Shown: piece by piece, positions 4,025 through 14,577 of the stretch
Numbering within the stretch: position 1 is the first letter of the stretch
Layout: the number at the start of each line of letters is the position of its first letter
Assembly (NCBI GenBank): GCA_021159785.1
Contig: JAGHDU010000067.1
Coordinates: 1 to 14,577, forward strand
Source: Staphylothermus sp.
GTDB lineage: Archaea > Thermoproteota > Thermoprotei_A > Sulfolobales > Desulfurococcaceae
Length of the DNA: 14,577 bases
Direction: 5' to 3'
Program-made: the position numbers and the translations under genes
The notes under the pieces: generated by a model
Database searches by the model: none
What the model saw: only the letters and a program-made list of their open reading frames with translations
What the model was told of the DNA's origin: nothing

Positions 4025-4112
4025 GCGGGGGTGCCCGAGCCTGGCCAAAGGGGTCGGGCTTAGGACCCGATGGCGTAGGCCTGCGTGGGTTCAAATCCCA
4101 CCCCCCGCACCA
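4025..4112 (+). tRNA. tRNA-Leu (anticodon UAG)
   Basis: The acceptor stem GCGGGGG (4025-4031) pairs with CCCCCGC (4102-4108), followed by A73 and an encoded CCA. The anticodon stem TCGGG/CCCGA encloses the loop CTTAGGA with anticodon TAG at 4061-4063. The T arm GTGGG-TTCAAAT-CCCAC spans 4085-4101. A long variable arm (about 4071-4084) makes it a class II tRNA, as expected for leucine, and A73 agrees. There is no intron. Confidence 0.97.
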
Positions 4113-4162: not shown

Positions 4163-5829
4163 GTGAATGGCGAATACTACTACTATTTAATCTTTGGACT
4201 AATGCTAGGTCTAGCATTTCTTCTTGGTACTCTTATGAAAAAGATTAGGTTATCAGCAAGTATTGGTTACTTGTTTGCAGGAGTTATTCTTAGCTTTTTC
4301 CTCCACATACCAAGCGATCTAATGGATTTACTCGAATTTTTCTCGGAAATAAGTATTATCCTATTGTTCTTTGAGATAGGGTTTGAAGTACATATTGACA
4401 ATATTGATAAGATCGCTGGTTTCCCAACGTATCTTTCACTCTTGGAGCTAGTTTTAGCTCTTTCAATGACGTTGGGATTGTGTTCCATCTTAGGCATAGA
4501 TGCAAGGGTTGCGTTAATCTATGGGTTAATGACTGCTTTTTCAAGTACTGTTTTACATATAAACTTCTCGAGGAAAAACCACCTACACGAAATGAAGTCC
4601 GAGAGACTGTTCTTATGGTTGCAGCTGTAGAAGACATTATCATTGTAACTATACTTACTCTTATGAGCGGTGGTAATAGTAATGTATTCATTCACTTATT
4701 ATATACTATCTCAGTAGGAATCGCTATATTCATACTATCATATGAGTTTGCCAAGAAAGTCCTTAATAGAATTATCAGTATTGATGATAATGGATTAATA
4801 TTACTTATCTCTTATGGTTTACTGATAAGTACAGCTTCAAGTATTCTAGGTTTATCAAGTGCTCCTGGTGCATTTATAGCAGGGCTGACCTCTTCCCATA
4901 TTGAGAAATCTGCTGATTTAATAAGAATGCTTAAACCTATAAGATTTATCTTCCTTACTCTCTTCCTTATCTCGATGGGCCTGGGCATGTTTATTTACAA
5001 AACGGATCTTCAAACATACATATTTAGCATAGGTATTGGTATCCTCATAGTCTTTATCCATGTAGTAACGACTATAACATCATCAATAATTGCTGGGGGT
5101 TTAGGTTTAAAATATGGTTTAGAAACTGGATTTTACTTATCGACTTCTAGCGAGTTATCGCTGGTTATTGCTTACTATGCGTTAATGCATATGAAGCTGG
5201 AACTACCCCTCGTACTTACTGCTTCGATAGCAATTATTGTTGGTTCAATTATTTCATCTAAATTGACGTATAATAGAGATCACTATATTCCCTTAGTACT
5301 CAAAAAGATCTCATATGAAAGATACAGCGTTATAGATACCACGCTATTAAGAATTAGGGCATTCATAAATAAGCACCAAGGCAGAATCTATTTTCTATTT
5401 AAACAACTTATGATTAGTCTCGTGGAACTCTTGATCTCTACTTTAATATTGGGTACTGTAATAGGCATAATGTATTCATTAACTAGTAATCAAACATTAT
5501 TCATTTCACTAATAGTCTTCTCTATTTACATTGTGGTATTTCTACGAATATACAAACGTTCAAGAAACATTCTCTATAGAATACTGATGGAGACAACTCA
5601 GGCTATAGGTGAACTACAATTAAGAATTATTGATAGAATATATGCTTCATTAATAATAATCATTACAATAGTGTTATCCTTTATAACAGTATATGTTATG
5701 CATAGAGGAATTTACGAAGTATTAGCAAGTGTTGTCGATCCCAGTATATTGTTCTTCATAGCTTTGTTCATGGTTCCTTTAGCTGAGATGATTTTCATTC
5801 TCTATGAGTTATTGCAGATAAAAAGATAA
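4163..5829 (+). pseudogene. CPA2-type cation/proton antiporter, broken by a -1 frameshift
   Basis: Two overlapping frames together make one Na+/H+ (or K+/H+) exchanger of the CPA2/KefB type. The first frame (GTG 4163 to stop 4630) carries the opening membrane helices through GLMTAFSSTVLHI. The second frame (open through 4480-5829) carries the rest: KLLEEKPPTRNEVRE, the AAVEDIII motif, SAPGAFIAGLTSS, FLISMGLG and GFYLSTSSELSLV. Joining at A4561 (re-reading one base, ATA then AAA) gives 555 residues. From SST to the ED pair there are 29 residues, the same number as from SST to QD in KefC as I recall it, so nothing is missing except the frame. The last 180 or so residues add four more membrane helices instead of a TrkA nucleotide-binding domain. 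The cause may be a real one-base deletion, recoding or a sequencing error. It is convergent with the next gene, 3 bases apart. Confidence 0.82.
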
Positions 5830-9242: not shown

Positions 9243-9276
9243 ACACCCCAAAACAATAACGTTTAATAATGAAGAG

Positions 9277-9410
9277 CCGGGGTGCCCGAGCGGCCTAAGG
9301 GGGTAGGCTCGAGACTCCTCCGTAAAAGTACTTTTCCGGCTAAGAAGTAGTCCGAGAGACCTACTGCCCCGTGGAGGGGTGCGCGGGTTCGAATCCCGCC
9401 CCCGGCGCCA
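9277..9410 (+). tRNA. tRNA-Ser (anticodon CGA) with a 45-nt intron
   Basis: Acceptor GCCGGGG (9277-9283) pairs with CCCCGGC (9400-9406), followed by G73, typical of archaeal serine tRNAs, and an encoded CCA. The T arm GCGGG-TTCGAAT-CCCGC is at 9383-9399. The anticodon stem GTAGG (9303-9307) pairs with CCTAC (9360-9364) only if an intron is removed; the mature loop then reads CTCGAGA with anticodon CGA at 9310-9312. A long variable arm (about 9365-9382) fits class II tRNA-Ser. Confidence 0.95.
9314..9358 (+). other. Archaeal tRNA intron (position 37/38) with bulge-helix-bulge
   Basis: The 45-nt intron sits between G37 (9313) and A38 (9359), the canonical archaeal site. CTCG (9308-9311) pairs with CGAG (9353-9356) as the 4-bp central helix, flanked by two identical 3-nt bulges AGA (9312-9314 and 9357-9359); both cuts fall as AG|A. 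Inside the intron CCG-T-AAAAGTACTTTT-C-CGG can fold as a hairpin. The inner helix next to the 5' bulge is not well paired, so this is a relaxed motif. Confidence 0.88.
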
Positions 9411-10269
9411 CTTTTTTCTTAACAATTATAGAAGCTATGGGTCTTGACAAGAGGACTACTAGACTAAATAATAAACCACTCAGTAGAATCAGTGGGAAAT
9501 AATCTGTTGATTCAAGTATGAGTGTTAATAAGAGGCCTGCGAAACTTATTATTAATGTTGTTATTCTGTAAATGTTTTCCTTCCTATACAGGTAGTCTCC
9601 TCTATGCCGCACCATGTACGCACCTGCTAATAGAATACCAATTGTTAATCCTAGTAGTAGATGGGAATCCTTATATTCAGGCATTTTGTAGGAAGCAATT
9701 GAGGACATTAACATAGAAGGAATGCTTACAGTTATTAAGTATCTGGGGGGATCACTTACTCTTATATAAAGGTAAACAGATGATAATGCTGTAACCACAC
9801 CTATAATAGCTCCTCCAATAACATCTACAGGATAATGTACATGGAGAACAAGTCTTGAATTACTAACAGCAAGTGAATGAATGAGCAGAGCTAATCCCAA
9901 TAATTTATCCCGTGCAACATATGCTGCGAGAAGAGCGAAGGAAAAACTCATTGCAGCATGTCCACTGGGAAATCCGGGCCCATCAGCTTCTACAAGCCAT
10001 TCAGATGCCGGGGGTCTAGGCATGTTCAATACAGTCTTTAACAATACATCGAGAGAAGCAGTTAAACTCAAACCACCAATTAAGAACAACCCAATATCCC
10101 CGGAAAAGATACAATAGGTCAAAACACCTAAAACCATATAGAAAACACTCTCACCAACACGACTAGCAACTATAGCAAAATCAACATTACCAGACAATAC
10201 TCCAATTAACTCAACAATAGATAAGAACAACAATAAATAAACCAAAACTCTCCTAGCCAACACCAACAC
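9361..10269 (-). CDS. PAP2-family membrane phosphatase
   Basis: The 302-residue membrane protein carries all three phosphatase motifs of the PAP2 (type 2 phosphatidic acid phosphatase) superfamily: KTVLNMPRP (residues 78-86), PSGH (101-104) and SRLVLHVHYPVD (138-149) with the catalytic His. Several hydrophobic helices surround them. Likely substrates are isoprenyl diphosphates or lipid phosphates at the membrane. GTG at 10269 is the start; the nearby ATG at 10273 is in a frame that stops quickly. The last 16 or so residues (VAPGAGFEPAHPSTGQ) are encoded antisense to the 3' half of tRNA-Ser, because no stop occurs before 9361. The functional protein probably ends near VLLSRPIASIIVKKK. The gene diverges from tRNA-Arg across 90 bp. 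Confidence 0.92.
   Translation of the reverse strand: MLVLARRVLVYLLLFLSIVELIGVLSGNVDFAIVASRVGESVFYMVLGVLTYCIFSGDIGLFLIGGLSLTASLDVLLKTVLNMPRPPASEWLVEADGPGFPSGHAAMSFSFALLAAYVARDKLLGLALLIHSLAVSNSRLVLHVHYPVDVIGGAIIGVVTALSSVYLYIRVSDPPRYLITVSIPSMLMSSIASYKMPEYKDSHLLLGLTIGILLAGAYMVRHRGDYLYRKENIYRITTLIISFAGLLLTLILESTDYFPLILLSGLLFSLVVLLSRPIASIIVKKKVAPGAGFEPAHPSTGQ
9412..9420 (+). terminator. T-rich terminator after tRNA-Ser
   Basis: TTTTTTCTT begins two bases after the encoded CCA end. Runs of T are the usual archaeal transcription stop. The same bases read on the minus strand as Lys codons of the PAP2 gene. Confidence 0.55.
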
Positions 10270-10359: not shown

Positions 10360-10438
10360 GGGCCCGTAGCCTAGCCAGGACCAAGGCGCCGGCCTTCGGA
10401 GCCGGAGATCCCGGGTTCAAATCCCGGCGGGCCCGCCA
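10360..10438 (+). tRNA. tRNA-Arg (anticodon UCG), probable integration site
   Basis: Acceptor GGGCCCG (10360-10366) pairs with CGGGCCC (10428-10434), then G73 and an encoded CCA. The anticodon stem CCGGC/GCCGG (10389-10393 and 10401-10405) encloses CTTCGGA with anticodon TCG at 10396-10398. The T arm is CCGGG-TTCAAAT-CCCGG. The mature part is 76 nt before CCA, with no intron. Its 3' half is repeated at 11396-11445, making it the likely attachment site of an integrated element. Confidence 0.97.
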
Positions 10439-10560
10439 CAAAATACTCCACATATAAGCTTTGTCTTTCCAGTAAACCTCATTATTAACTTCGCCTCCGG
10501 AAGAGGAATTATGTTTATTCTTCCCCATTAGAGATAATCATAACTGATAATTCCGGTTGG

Positions 10561-11007
10561 CTAGGGGACTACTTTGAGCCATGGTATACGCTTGAAATCC
10601 TCGTCGAAGGTTATAATAGTGTCTATACCGTAGTGTTTACAAGTCAGAGTTATAATGGCATCGCTTGGCGTGAGCCTGTACTTCTTCATGGTTTCTAGTA
10701 ACTCGCGTGGCTCTGCATAGTCCCTTAATATTGTTATTTCGAATTCTTGTAGCATGTTAGTGTATTTTTCTAGTGCATCAAGCGCGAAATCGAGGCCTCT
10801 TGACCTAATGTATTCTTTCAGCTTCTTTAGAGACCTAATTCCAAGCCTCCTCTTTGCTAGTCGCCTTATTATAACGAATTCCACTTCATCTATAATGCCG
10901 ATTGTAACCGCTAGGTCAGGGTAGGACACTAGCAGTTTCTCAGCCTCAGCGGCTCGGTCTCCGTCGAGAAGATATTGTATAAAGATATTTGTGTCAACAA
11001 CCTTCAT
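10561..11007 (-). CDS. vapC: PIN-domain toxin ribonuclease (VapC-like)
   Basis: The 148-residue PIN-domain protein begins MKVVDTNIFI, with the first metal-binding Asp at residue 5, and has acidic residues in DEVEFVI (Glu41/Glu43), PSDAIIT (Asp116) and TFDEDF (Asp135/Asp137). These make up the PIN nuclease site that cuts RNA, often tRNA, in VapC toxins. The protein has normal length. It lies 18 bases after its antitoxin gene on the same strand, so the pair is one operon. Base composition is visibly richer in G+C than the neighbours and it sits between tRNA-Arg and its partial copy, pointing to horizontal arrival. What target it cuts cannot be told from sequence. Confidence 0.9.
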   Translation of the reverse strand: MKVVDTNIFIQYLLDGDRAAEAEKLLVSYPDLAVTIGIIDEVEFVIIRRLAKRRLGIRSLKKLKEYIRSRGLDFALDALEKYTNMLQEFEITILRDYAEPRELLETMKKYRLTPSDAIITLTCKHYGIDTIITFDEDFKRIPWLKVVP

Positions 11008-11025
11008 ATTCTGGGCGCCTCGATG

Positions 11026-11235
11026 TTACAGCCTCTCAAACTCGGCCTCAAGCAACAACTCCTCTATCTCCTCCTTACTGGCCTTGCCAAGAATTCCACG
11101 GTACTTGCGGAGTCTTCTAAGCCTATCCTCATAAGTCTCTAGCCTTACTATTACTTCCTCACCTTCCCTAAGGTCTACGGGTTCAAGAAGCTTCAGCACA
11201 CCCCTTTCATACCTGGCTCTAACAACCTTTGACAA
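11026..11235 (-). CDS. DUF104 / AF2212-like antitoxin (VapB-type)
   Basis: The 69-residue protein begins with the DUF104 signature: VVRARYERGVLKLLEPVDLR followed by EGEEVIVRLE, a small beta domain. A charged helical tail (YEDRLRRLRKYRG to the end) would wrap the toxin. In archaea this family is typically found just upstream of PIN toxins, as here, and normally represses its own operon as a complex with the toxin. The start is TTG at 11235, chosen because the N-terminal strand must begin there and GGGGAT lies a few bases upstream. Confidence 0.85.
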   Translation of the reverse strand: MSKVVRARYERGVLKLLEPVDLREGEEVIVRLETYEDRLRRLRKYRGILGKASKEEIEELLLEAEFERL

Positions 11236-11281
11236 CTCTATCCCCGCTTATACTCTATGTGTAATGGGACAATTAGCCTTT

Positions 11282-11376
11282 TTTCCAGGCCAAGTGTTTC
11301 CAGATTATCTATACTGAAACCCCTAACGATAATCAGCTGTGAGGAGTGTTTTCCAGTTGATGGTTTCCTCTGGAAA
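11282..11376. repeat. Cluster of TTTCCAG motifs, three direct and one inverted
   Basis: TTTCCAG occurs on the plus strand at 11282-11288, 11297-11303 and 11350-11356, and inverted as CTGGAAA at 11370-11376. The last two can form a 7-bp hairpin with a 13-nt loop. The cluster lies between the antitoxin start and the tRNA-Arg copy. It may be an operator for the toxin-antitoxin operon or arm-type binding sites of an integrase; this is inference. Confidence 0.55.
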
Positions 11377-11395
11377 CATCATTTATATATATTAT

Positions 11396-11445
11396 CGGCC
11401 TTCGGAACCGGAGGTCTCGGGTTCAAATCCCGGCGGGCCCGCCAC
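11396..11445 (+). repeat. Partial copy of tRNA-Arg 3' half (putative attR)
   Basis: These 50 bases match 10390-10439 of tRNA-Arg at 47 positions, running from the anticodon stem through T arm, acceptor strand and CCA. There is no 5' half, so it is not a working tRNA. One mismatch breaks the last anticodon-stem pair, another turns a T-stem pair into a wobble; the sequence has therefore drifted or came from a slightly different tRNA-Arg. TTTATATATATT directly upstream (11382-11393) resembles a TATA box. Confidence 0.93.
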
Positions 11446-11761
11446 CAATTCTATAATTCCATGTTCTTTTCTATTGATTTTGATATTCTTACCATGAAAG
11501 TGTAGATAAAAGTATTCATTCTTCTTGAAGTTCCAATGAAGGGTGTGTTGTTTCTCACATCTTCAGTCTAATTAAAACATGCTTGAGAATGGTGTAAGGA
11601 TAATCCTAAGGGTAACAACTTAATGAGTATAGTGTTATAGTTCTGGTTTTCTTGATGTATTTGCAGATTTATCAAAAATACTGGAAGGTATAATTCTTAC
11701 TCGTTTATCTATGTAATTATCATCGCTGTATTCATTAACCGACTAAATCATAATACTGGAT
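11446..11761. other. Gene-free A+T-rich spacer beyond the tRNA-Arg copy
   Basis: No open frame with a plausible start, no RNA gene and no repeat was found in these 316 bases. Short A+T-rich stretches just before 11762 could hold the promoter of the membrane protein gene that follows. Confidence 0.5.
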
Positions 11762-12511
11762 ATGCTTTTTATAGTATTTAATCCATGGTTTAATACAGGG
11801 TTTATCTTGCATAGAGCGATTGTACGGGATTTAATGTTTATTATACTCCTTTTTGTTGCAGTACCATTTGTATTAATATATTTATTGGGACTACCTAACG
11901 GGTTGATTTCTATGTTGATATATATGCAGTTACTAATCATATGGATCCAGCTAGAGCTTTCAATGAGGCAGCAGTTCCTTTATAGATCTCAGTTCATTCC
12001 AATATTGACTCTGAAAGTACTTTCAAAAACAATCTTAGTAGAGAGTGGAGAAAATAGTCGAGAGACAGAGACTATAACCATTACTGTTCGTAATCTGAGC
12101 GATAATCCTGCATTCAACGTTATGTTGAGCCGTATTCTTTCAGATGACTATACACCTCTAGAACCTCGTATGTGGACAAGCGTTCTTCGATGCAATATTA
12201 TTGATCATTTAGGGCCAAGAGATGAGAAACAATTATGTACAACAACTGCTAACGAACTTGAACAGCTCTTGAATAACACGAGAGTGCTTGAAGTAAGTTA
12301 TGTTGATAAATATGGTGAGTGGCATTCTACAGCATTCACGATAAACAAAAATAAGAAAACTGGTAAAGTAGAGATTATAACTATACCATATCTTGGGAAA
12401 TTAGAGGAAGTGGGTATACTATTACCCTTATTTAACACAGTAGTGCTATATTTTAGATCACGTAGAGTTCTTAGAAAGTTAAAGACAAAGAAAAGAGAGG
12501 TTGTCAACTAA
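11762..12511 (+). CDS. Unrecognised membrane protein with an extracytoplasmic-type beta domain
   Basis: I do not recognise this 249-residue protein. Two hydrophobic helices lie near the N-terminus (about residues 22-44 and 48-66), then a mainly beta-strand domain (about 75-200) containing ETITITVRNLSDNPAFNV, a pattern like Ig/CARDB-type domains. A third hydrophobic stretch GILLPLFNTVVLYF (about 218-231) precedes a basic tail ending KTKKREVVN. ATG at 11762 is the only good start. It stands alone in a gene-poor zone between the tRNA-Arg copy and the dipeptidase. The start of possible degenerate coding sequence overlaps its 3' end in another frame, so its true C-terminus may have been altered by a frameshift. 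It is likely a real gene because the frame is long and amino-acid patterns are coherent. Confidence 0.6.
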   Translation: MLFIVFNPWFNTGFILHRAIVRDLMFIILLFVAVPFVLIYLLGLPNGLISMLIYMQLLIIWIQLELSMRQQFLYRSQFIPILTLKVLSKTILVESGENSRETETITITVRNLSDNPAFNVMLSRILSDDYTPLEPRMWTSVLRCNIIDHLGPRDEKQLCTTTANELEQLLNNTRVLEVSYVDKYGEWHSTAFTINKNKKTGKVEIITIPYLGKLEEVGILLPLFNTVVLYFRSRRVLRKLKTKKREVVN

Positions 12512-12699
12512 TTCTAACAGCAAGGATCTTCTTTACATTACTGTATACTATGCCATTTGTGACTCTGTTTTTGAGTCTTGAAAGGATATCTGGTTATAAA
12601 AGTTTCCACGGGATTGAATCCATTCTTGGCACAATTCTCTTCTAAGCGCCTACGATCTTGTTTAGCGAACTAAAGATTTGGCTTTTATACAGGTAATAA
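12475..12699 (+). pseudogene. Possible degenerate coding fragment with one membrane helix
   Basis: In one frame the bases read KVKDKEKRGCQLILTARIFF, then TLLYTMPFVTLFLSLERISG and so on to a TAA at 12643, and the same frame stays open afterwards (APTILFSELKIWLLYR). The only ATG (12550) would give just 31 residues. The text is membrane-protein-like but short; it overlaps the end of the preceding gene by some 35 bases. It may be the lost C-terminal part of that gene, or chance. Confidence 0.2.
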
Positions 12700-13256
12700 G
12701 AATTTATTATTGTTCTTTCTATGTTCCAAGTAAAAAGACAAGTTAGTCATTAAATACATTTAATGCAGTGTTAGCAGAACCTTACTTTATTTTAGTGATT
12801 ATTTCGTAGAAATCCTTTTTGAGTATACTTATGGGCCGATGTCTTTCGTTCTTGGGTCCTTATAATTACGCTTAAATATCCATTTAAATTCAATAATATA
12901 TGTGATGTATATTTGAAATTACATGTTTTCGAATATAGGCCGCCCTTAAAAGCATCGTTCTTAGCCGCTATTTTGGGTATAGTATTCATTCTTATATTTG
13001 CATTTAGATACATATTACGGAGCCCCGCTGCTGTTTGTTAGAATTATTGCTGGGTTGTTAGGATTTATAGGTATTACTGTATGTATATGGAATTTCATTG
13101 TGGGTAGACGTTTGGCTAAGAAAGAACGCGGATTCTATGTGGTCAAGAAGTGAGGGATTCTGGGATTCAATAATACTCTCCATGAATCAATTATGAAAAT
13201 GTAGGCTTTTACATGAAGCAGTTAAATAATGATACTCGATTATACGCAGTATTTTT
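12512..13256. other. 745-bp stretch without an intact gene
   Basis: Between the unrecognised membrane protein and the convergent dipeptidase there is no intact frame with a good start. It holds two degenerate coding traces, described separately (12475-12699 and 12913-13153). The bases between, about 12700-12900, and 13154-13256 show only scattered A+T-rich sequence and no RNA gene or repeat that I could see. A minus-strand frame at 12792-13013 is low-complexity and basic and looks spurious. Confidence 0.6.
12913..13153 (+). pseudogene. Small two-helix membrane protein split by a one-base shift
   Basis: From a TTG at 12913 one frame reads LHVFEYRPPLKASF and a clear membrane helix LAAILGIVFILIFAFRYIL before stopping at 13041. 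The next frame (+1) takes over at the CCCC run around 13023-13026 and reads LLFVRIIAGLLGFIGITVCI with a second helix, ending WNFIVGRRLAKKERGFYVVKK-like basic tail and TGA at 13153. Joined, this is a coherent protein of about 79 residues with two membrane helices and a positively charged cytoplasmic end. An extra C in the run would explain the break. The family is unknown. Confidence 0.4.
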
Positions 13257-14264
13257 TCACTTGATCCAGTTCTTTAGTGCACGTAATGCGTTTTCATAAG
13301 CTATTTTTCTAATATCATGTTTACTTAGTCCTTGTTCTAGAAGCGTCTTCCATAATGCATTGATCTTATCTATAGTTTCTAAACCAGTCACTATATTGAG
13401 ATTTAGTGAGCCGAAGTAATCTGAGCCGATTGATATGATGTCTACGCCATAATTGTCTTTGATGTACATAATGTGTTTGATTAGGTCCTCTATACTAGCT
13501 CTTCGACTCTTCGAGACAAAAGGTTCTATGAACGTAATTCCAATTACTCCTTTACTTGAACTAATAATTTCTAATGTCTTATCACCTAGATTTCTATCTA
13601 CATTACATATATGTCTAGCATTCGCATGACTTACAATAATGGGTTTCTTCGTGAGATAATATACTTCTTCTACTGTATTCCTACTGGCATGAGCTAAATC
13701 TACTGCTACGCCTAGCTCCAATGCTTTCTCAATAAGTTTAACCCCTTCTCTTGTTAATCCACTATCGACCTTAGATTTACATGACGCAGCATATCTATTA
13801 TTATAGTTCCAAGTTAAGCCTAAAACCCTCAAACCTAAATCGTACAGTAATTCAAGATCATTAACATCGTATATAGGATCAGCCCCTTCTAGACCAAGCA
13901 TTATACCAACCTTGAAATTATTAGCATAAACCAAGTCTTGTAGAACACTATAATTAGTTACCATAACGAGCTCTTTATGTGAACGAATAAGCATTCTATA
14001 CAATTTCAAGTGCTCAAGAACTATATCCATTTTCGGATAATGTTTAAACGTTATACGTCCATTACTATACCATGGTAACCCCGGAAACACGGCACCAACA
14101 ACCATTCTTGTATTAGCCCTACGATACTTAGGTATATCAGCATGTCTATAACGTGTATCCATATCAAATGGTTCCAAAGGAAACGGGTTCAAAACACTGG
14201 CAGTCATGTAATATAATGAAATATCTTCATGAAGATCTATTAATGGTACATCAATTAATTCCAT
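13257..14264 (-). CDS. Membrane dipeptidase-type metallopeptidase (peptidase M19)
   Basis: The 335-residue protein matches peptidase family M19 (renal/microsomal dipeptidase), TIM-barrel enzymes with two zinc ions that split dipeptides. The metal ligands are visible: His12 and Asp14 in DLHED, Glu126 in GLEGADP, His192 in VDLAHAS and His213 in IVSHANARHI; the following VDRNLGD (222-228) and IGSDYFG (279-285, with Asp281) are also family motifs, as is LGLTWNYNNRYA (149-159). Length fits archaeal members. There is no signal peptide, so a cytoplasmic enzyme for peptide scavenging is likely. GGGTGAT a few bases before the ATG at 14264 confirms the start. It is convergent to the gene-poor zone and alone in its operon. 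Confidence 0.94.
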   Translation of the reverse strand: MELIDVPLIDLHEDISLYYMTASVLNPFPLEPFDMDTRYRHADIPKYRRANTRMVVGAVFPGLPWYSNGRITFKHYPKMDIVLEHLKLYRMLIRSHKELVMVTNYSVLQDLVYANNFKVGIMLGLEGADPIYDVNDLELLYDLGLRVLGLTWNYNNRYAASCKSKVDSGLTREGVKLIEKALELGVAVDLAHASRNTVEEVYYLTKKPIIVSHANARHICNVDRNLGDKTLEIISSSKGVIGITFIEPFVSKSRRASIEDLIKHIMYIKDNYGVDIISIGSDYFGSLNLNIVTGLETIDKINALWKTLLEQGLSKHDIRKIAYENALRALKNWIK

Positions 14265-14577
14265 TTAATCACCCTACACATATTAACACAATTAGCAGAA
14301 TATATTGCAAACACATTCTATCACTAATTCCATCATATAATATCAATATCATTTTAAATGTAAGGGAATAAATAAAGTTCAATAAAGATACCTTTTTGAC
14401 AAAATACTTTGAATACTCTATTAACGAAAACGTATTGATTATTAGTGCGACTATCTAACAGTCGTTTTACATAATAATATGCTCCCTTATAAAGAACCCC
14501 ATTAGAGGAGTTAGATCATTCCGACCAAATATTATTCATAATAATATATTAAACAAATGCTTATATTATTCTTGTAA
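14265..14577. other. Gene-free A+T-rich right edge
   Basis: These 313 bases have stops in every frame and no RNA gene that I could recognise. They hold the dipeptidase ribosome-binding site and presumably its promoter, and a small hairpin CGACT-ATCTAAC-AGTCG at 14448-14464. A TTATAAAG stretch near 14489 could be a TATA box of a gene beyond the window. Confidence 0.5.
14267..14274 (-). promoter_or_regulatory. Ribosome-binding site GGGTGATT for the dipeptidase gene
   Basis: On the minus strand GGGTGATT precedes the ATG at 14264 by 2 bases after the motif's final T (core GGTGAT about 4 bases away). It is a strong match to the 16S rRNA 3' end and confirms the start. Confidence 0.75.

Follow-up and report, generated by a model that had tools for sequence, protein, structure and literature searches.

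Exchangeable toxin–antitoxin cassettes joined at the 3′ half of tRNA-Arg in Staphylothermus and related archaea

Nearest described systems

The described systems nearest to the locus reported here are integrons, integrated elements of the pNOB8 and SSV types, and dif modules. Integrons, including archaeal ones, are arrays anchored at one site in which short units follow one another; every unit has its cargo and a single recombination site but no recombinase (PMC9668308), and sedentary chromosomal integrons carry toxin–antitoxin (TA) cassettes (PMC11551772). The cassettes described below share this organisation and a TA-rich cargo. They differ from integrons in having the 3′ half of tRNA-Arg as joint in place of attC and a tRNA gene as anchor in place of attI, in the PF16795 match of the associated integrases, and in the orientation of most TA operons, which is opposite to that of the half.

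Archaeal elements of the pNOB8 and SSV types insert in the 3′ half of a tRNA gene, the tRNA being restored and a 3′ fragment displaced (PMC8371274, PMC3293823), a layout that recurs here. The attP site of SSV1 is 44 bp of tRNA-Arg (PMC3293823), and strand exchange by IntSSV1 borders the anticodon loop (PMC8371274), which is where the right-flank homology at our locus starts. In the pNOB8 type an intact integrase lies beside the tRNA (PMC3293823), as it does in larger elements reported below. The cassettes themselves differ from both types: they are about 1 kb long, lack integrase and replication genes, and line up dissimilar TA operons in arrays. The dif/pdif modules of Acinetobacter plasmids are likewise small TA or resistance modules with no recombinase of their own, bounded by sites of a recombinase acting in trans (PMC12907356, PMC13141974); in their case these are Xer sites, plasmid-borne or chromosomal, whereas the boundaries here coincide with tRNA halves on an archaeal chromosome. 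The VapBC pairs of Sulfolobales are abundant and lie in variable parts of the genome, as here, but the available parts of the sources tie them to insertion sequences or large variable regions and not to tRNA-half joints (PMC3718332, PMC4390879). Among the titles and abstract openings listed for archaeal TA genes with tRNA fragments, an integrase or arrays in the open-licence PMC literature, we found no description of such a cassette system.

The cassette behind tRNA-Arg(TCG)

The window, the whole 14,577-nt stretch analysed here, is contig C58 of an assembly of 1.29 Mb that is 70% complete. The original prediction described a TA pair enclosed by tRNA-Arg and a 50-bp copy of its 3′ half, in the attL/attR layout of an integrated element, and the features agree with it.

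10360..10438, plus strand: intact tRNA-Arg(TCG), presumably the reconstituted target gene (ARAGORN; Rfam RF00005, 66.6 bits over 10360-10435)
10389..10405, plus strand: anticodon stem-loop CCGGC-CTTCGGA-GCCGG, putative recombination core (sequence; sister-haplotype right-flank homology; analogy with IntSSV1)
10390..10439, plus strand: first copy of the 50-nt repeat, the tRNA 3′ half
10561..11007, minus strand: predicted VapC-like PIN-domain toxin, 148 aa (PF01850, E 4.9e-17)
11026..11235, minus strand: AF2212-like antitoxin, 69 aa, TTG start as listed (PF01954, E 2.6e-20, on 11026-11247)
11282..11303, plus strand: 'third copy' region, in which the repeat word TTTCCAG recurs twice more in direct orientation, at 11282 and 11297
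11350..11377, plus strand: inverted pair TTTCCAG (11350) / CTGGAAAC (11370), module class S1
11382..11395, plus strand: A/T box TTTATATATATTAT, abutting the half on its left
11396..11445, plus strand: orphan tRNA-Arg 3′ half, right joint of the cassette (47/50 to the tRNA)
11446..14577, strand not given: right flank with a 249-aa ORF and an M19 peptidase; the contig ends there

The two copies of the repeat (10390-10439 and 11396-11445) begin with the anticodon stem, extend to the 3′ end and are identical at 47 of 50 positions, or 49 of 53 when extended. A chance origin is excluded, since the best match of the 50-mer in 20 shuffles of 10440-14577 reached 25/50 and its next-best real match 23/50. 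Between the tRNA and the orphan half lie 956 nt, in which the PIN and AF2212-like genes (the latter of a family called DUF104 in older usage) stand in tandem on the minus strand, a gene layout that, by Pfam matches, suits a type II VapBC system. The interior had been said to encode nothing else, and we found no further ORF of note of at least 60 aa; one 82-aa plus-strand ORF (11257-11505) crosses the right repeat. Its G+C content had been put at about 52–53%; we measured 42.4% (45.0% in the coding part), though this is above the left (35.7%) and right (33.0%) flanks. The expected lack of an integrase was borne out: tblastn with ten integrases found no relic in the window, its sole matches falling on a tRNA-Leu at about 4035-4112. 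The window thus has an intact tRNA and a direct 3′ repeat at opposite ends of the unit, as tRNA-targeting elements do, and has just the PIN and AF2212 genes inside, with no integrase of its own.

Several neighbouring features were also recorded. A tRNA-Ser(CGA) with a 45-nt intron, at 9276-9410, was missed by the default tRNA search, and the listed PAP2 frame (9361-10269) overlaps its 3′ part. To the right, the 249-aa ORF (11762-12511) has a relative in one of 24 other genomes (G031; 44% over about 95 aa), lying 76 nt from a PF16795 integrase, and the M19 peptidase (13257-14264) occurs in five of the 24, none of the same genus. The right flank matched none of the three other haplotypes of the genus at this locus. 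It looks foreign and is perhaps a second element; an array may continue beyond the end of the contig.

Exchange of cassettes and their arrays in relatives

Three genomes of the genus provide four haplotypes of the window locus, two of them (C450 and C89) in one bin, G002, that is 7% contaminated. Each haplotype holds a different cassette.

Window: AF2212/PIN
G001:C138: MazE-type/PIN and a deoxyribosyltransferase-like gene
G002:C450: AF2212/PIN and a methyltransferase-like gene
G002:C89: UPF0175/DUF3368

The flanks of these cassettes are conserved. The left flanks of G001 and G002_C450 are 93.8% identical (760 columns) as far as the tRNA end, and their right flanks 93.9% identical (2,379 columns) starting at nucleotide 2 of the half; the stretches enclosed show no match. 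Between G001 and G002_C89, identity is 94.7% on the left (456 columns) and 88.6% on the right (437 columns), from nucleotide 5 of the half. G002_C450 and C89 agree at 95.4% on the left and 85.0% on the right, where the likeness begins 91 nt left of the half and includes the repeat module described below. The window matches G001 at 80.5% over 6,492 columns of left flank, stopping at the tRNA 3′ end. Since right-flank homology among sister haplotypes starts 2–5 nt into the half, and IntSSV1 strand exchange borders the anticodon loop in the available part of PMC8371274, we take 10389..10405 as the probable recombination core. The tRNA-Arg(TCG) genes of G001 and G002_C89 contain a 16-nt intron just after the anticodon loop (L214 6385-6478; L071 2989-3083), and those of the window and G002_C450 have none. 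Such an intron should break the presumed integrase site, yet the cassettes differ there; the observation touches the proposal, in the part of PMC3293823 available, that tRNA introns guard against integration.

The same pattern occurs in the sister species G018 and G006, which belong to another genus than the window. They agree at 93.0% over 6,390 columns to the end of tRNA-Arg(TCG), then carry different cassettes, and their right flanks agree again at 93.0% from L035:13228 and L037:8042. At tRNA-Arg(CCG) they agree at 92.7% to the tRNA end, and the sole cassette in common there is TumE (90.6%). Sister loci thus carry different cassettes, and not the same TA genes and tRNA copy retained at syntenic sites.

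Homology between units also ends at the joints. Comparison of 63 units gave 22 homologous pairs in different loci, whose left ends fell in the site in 12 cases, inside the unit in 10 and beyond it in none; of the right ends, scored for 21 pairs, 15 lay at the half, five inside and one beyond, the last in an orthologous array pair. This half-to-half homology, together with the exchange between flanks at the window locus, contradicts the reading that the repeat is a duplication without element boundaries, and the attL/attR layout is supported by the different small cassettes between the same flanks.

Two origins had been offered for the window's unit: a miniature element moved in trans, or a larger integrated element that collapsed to its TA pair and was retained by addiction. 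The layout alone is compatible with collapse, and larger elements and integrase relics, described in the next section, count in its favour. Yet intact-ended units of about 1 kb recur in unrelated loci, alike exactly from half to half, and four haplotypes of one genus hold four cassettes at one site, so independent shrinkage to the same ends is improbable; we consider the collapse origin very unlikely. The miniature moved in trans is favoured because units of this size, for which a search among relatives had been proposed, recur as modular cassettes in many genomes and because the same flanks enclose different small cassettes in other haplotypes. The window's cassette is therefore no lone remnant; it belongs to an exchangeable family that uses the tRNA-Arg 3′ half as its joint.

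Further joints lie in the window's own genome, where contig C150 reads PIN, AF2212, half, a second PIN in the opposite orientation, half, and contig C189 reads PIN, AF2212, half; all three AF2212 antitoxins found there by Pfam adjoin a half. By DNA search of 41 genomes and the loci fetched from them, arrays stand behind tRNA-Arg(TCG), tRNA-Arg(CCG) and, once, tRNA-Arg(GCG). The longest, in G039, starts at the tRNA-Arg(CCG) of L127, which is followed by six halves there and by a weak seventh (13.4 bits) on the next stretch. In such arrays cassettes follow one another in tandem with one recombination site each, as in integrons; the window itself shows one cassette. Comparison of L034 with L038 illustrates their plasticity: the first cassette is common to both, the second of L034 is the fourth of L038, and two cassettes are missing between halves. 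Besides PIN/AF2212, cassettes carry UPF0175 with DUF3368 PIN, DUF433 with DUF5615, MNT with HEPN, TumE, PemK/MazF, HicA, and PIN with a MazE-type antitoxin; a ParE-like gene stands beside another half, and some units hold non-TA genes, such as aspartyl-protease-like and methyltransferase genes.

Orphan halves bearing the module occur in at least 14 of the 41 genomes, a minimum taken from fetched loci. A pattern scan of the genomes of 84,980 species returned 34 stretches, all from archaeal metagenome-assembled genomes by title and mostly from Desulfurococcales and allied Thermoproteota; one, a Nitrososphaeria record, resembles an intron-split tRNA. Rates among array loci are biased, as most were fetched through TA or tRNA DNA matches. 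Among loci fetched by tRNA match alone (L070-L149), an orphan-half call lay within 3.5 kb of 7 of 72 tRNA-Arg genes against 1 of 16 other tRNAs, with the L113 site, seemingly an intron-split tRNA, supplying one of the seven and the single other. Thirty loci retrieved by their AF2212 antitoxins divided evenly: 15 had a half at 116–184 nt (some weak, 13–16 bits) and 15 had none.

Many orphan halves are badly decayed. Decay was also considered as a possible sign of insertion beside the tRNA, and L031, L036, L038 and L127 show no steady decay with distance, so insertion beside the tRNA is not supported by this measure. Two annotations deserve comment. The tRNA-Arg called intact by ARAGORN at L030 8019-8095 is an orphan half, because the sequence upstream of it is the repeat module, and automatic tRNA annotation will over-count such sites. 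In L039, two tRNA-Arg(CCG) calls (5708-5786 and 14281-14361) flank about 8.5 kb with a PIN/AF2212 pair.

Given that some PIN toxins are nucleases that cleave tRNA, and that the half keeps the whole anticodon loop, one might see in the half a functional RNA, a toxin decoy or a piece of a split tRNA, selected beside TA genes. However, halves accompany unrelated TA families, the decay of many of them is advanced, and in sister haplotypes the half travels with the right flank. The split-tRNA variant is needless, as the window has an intact tRNA-Arg(TCG) adjoining the half. We regard a selected function of this kind as extremely improbable.

The repeat module, the integrases and a proposed mechanism

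Left of many orphan halves lies a module composed of three copies of one 7-mer and an A/T box. After removal of six duplicate loci we counted 113 orphan calls, some intron-split tRNAs among them, 109 of which had enough upstream DNA. The A/T box was present left of the half in 80 of the 113 and in none of 129 intact tRNAs. An inverted 7-mer pair accompanied 66 of the 109, against 13.1 by shuffle, and a third copy, in direct orientation and spaced according to class, was present in 40 of these 66, compared with 16.4 (maximum 27) when arms were dealt at random. The module falls into three sequence classes, GTTTCCA, TGTCCCA and GTTGCAT. Exact patterns for the first two found 11 sites in the 41 genomes, all next to a half, and none with reversed controls; the patterns were built from these same halves and are strict enough to miss the window itself. 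The G001 cassette has no recognisable module.

Cargo differs among the classes. Modules of class TGTCCCA (S2) go with several TA families, and three of the 16 S2 cassettes with assigned cargo face the other way, with the module still at the half. S1 and S3 modules, among cases with assigned cargo, accompany AF2212 only; cargo is unassigned in 13 of 29 S2, 4 of 24 S1, 2 of 5 S3 and 3 of 8 other modules. Since S1 and S3 were met just with AF2212 among the assigned cases, these modules could serve as AF2212 operators. Spacing between antitoxin and half is fixed, at 165–178 nt in 21 of 26 cases. A role as TA promoter was considered and set aside: a TATA-like word lies nearer the antitoxin's own start in 14 of the 26, and the flipped S2 cassettes also speak against it.

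Candidate enzymes occur at the same tRNA genes. PF16795 is found in 20 of the 41 genomes (19 above the cut-off) and PF00589 in 36. Intact PF16795 frames stand directly 3′ of tRNA-Arg(CCG) in L052 (457 aa), L054 (434 aa) and L055 (356 aa) and of tRNA-Arg(GCG) in L053 (428 aa). The L054 element spans 9.2 kb, with a PIN/AF2212 pair and a half at the distal end; in the fetched stretches, no distal end could be located for the elements of L052, L053 and L055. Integrase relics occur in arrays, in L035 right after an orphan half (54.5% over 55 aa), in L038 as pieces 86% and 94% identical to L052, and in L169 beside a half; L169 borders on L157 of the same contig, where an intact tRNA-Arg(CCG) lies. 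Weak helix-turn-helix (HTH) matches were seen in the N-terminal part of the integrases of L050, L053 and L054.

At their outer ends, integrase elements resemble TA cassettes in L044, which matches L052 at 93% over 30 nt and L054 at 19 of 19 nt; a weaker match of 15 nt lies at the tRNA of L035. The best match to the L054 outer end, at the L035 orphan (88% over 43 nt), was rejected as a TA-cassette match because that orphan leads into an integrase relic, so that the comparison is between two integrase elements. No free circle, virus or plasmid carrying the site came to light: an exact pattern had no match in viral_contigs, and one integrase used as query matched no phage or plasmid. Searches of solved structures with the toxin and one integrase gave no match.

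No integrase was seen at a tRNA-Arg in the window's own genome, at its 70% completeness, where PF16795 genes lie on one contig, one of them adjoining tRNA-Trp. There, an intron-bearing tRNA-Trp(CCA) is followed by two PF16795 frames, 448 and 292 aa long (L050 75-2697). The complete genome G030 has arrays with no PF16795 match and one PF00589 match; a visiting integrase, or that one PF00589 enzyme, could explain its arrays.

The G030 arrays would also be expected if homologous recombination between the 50-nt halves moved and swapped cassettes without an integrase, and the halves are indeed near-identical repeats; the two cassettes missing between halves in the L034–L038 comparison fit as well. 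Such recombination accounts neither for how cassettes first came to stand behind intact tRNAs, nor for the constant module to the left of the half, nor for the integrase genes adjoining the same tRNAs. As the explanation of the system it seems to us unlikely, but it may well be a second route of cassette loss or exchange.

Across these genomes the joints lie at tRNA halves, units are modular, whole cassettes are exchanged between conserved flanks, a common module accompanies them and integrases occupy the same sites. We think it likely that the window's unit is a non-autonomous, integron-like mobile cassette, for which a trans-acting integrase carries out recombination in the anticodon loop of tRNA-Arg. 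Several observations speak against this: the window's genome showed no integrase at a tRNA-Arg, G030 has arrays with no PF16795 match, no free form was found, halves lack a decay gradient, the window's right flank differs from those of its relatives, the G001 cassette has no recognisable module, right-hand homology of G002_C450 and C89 takes in the module, and the S1 and S3 modules could be operators. A cassette would comprise one TA operon, one attachment site (the anticodon stem-loop and 3′ half of tRNA-Arg) and the repeat module beside the half. PF16795 elements at the same tRNA-Arg genes would provide, in trans, a tyrosine integrase that joins a circular cassette to the tRNA in the anticodon loop; the cassette's own 3′ half would restore the tRNA, and the displaced chromosomal 3′ half would become the right orphan. 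Repeated rounds, with half-to-half exchange, would build and shuffle arrays, and the TA cargo presumably retains the cassette by penalising its loss.

More tentatively, at somewhat less than even odds, the cassettes may form a separate system of hyperthermophilic archaea in which PF16795 integrases that bear an HTH act in trans and use the three-copy 7-bp module as their arm site, each of its at least three classes having its own integrase; the module classes yield direct predictions of integrase binding. If the mechanism is true, it would amount to another way of building cassette arrays next to that of integrons, with an essential tRNA gene as its foundation, and would account for the spread of TA pairs without mobility genes among hyperthermophilic archaea. 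It bears on how small non-autonomous archaeal elements move, and on what repeated insertion does to an essential tRNA gene, whose 3′ half each insertion would replace.
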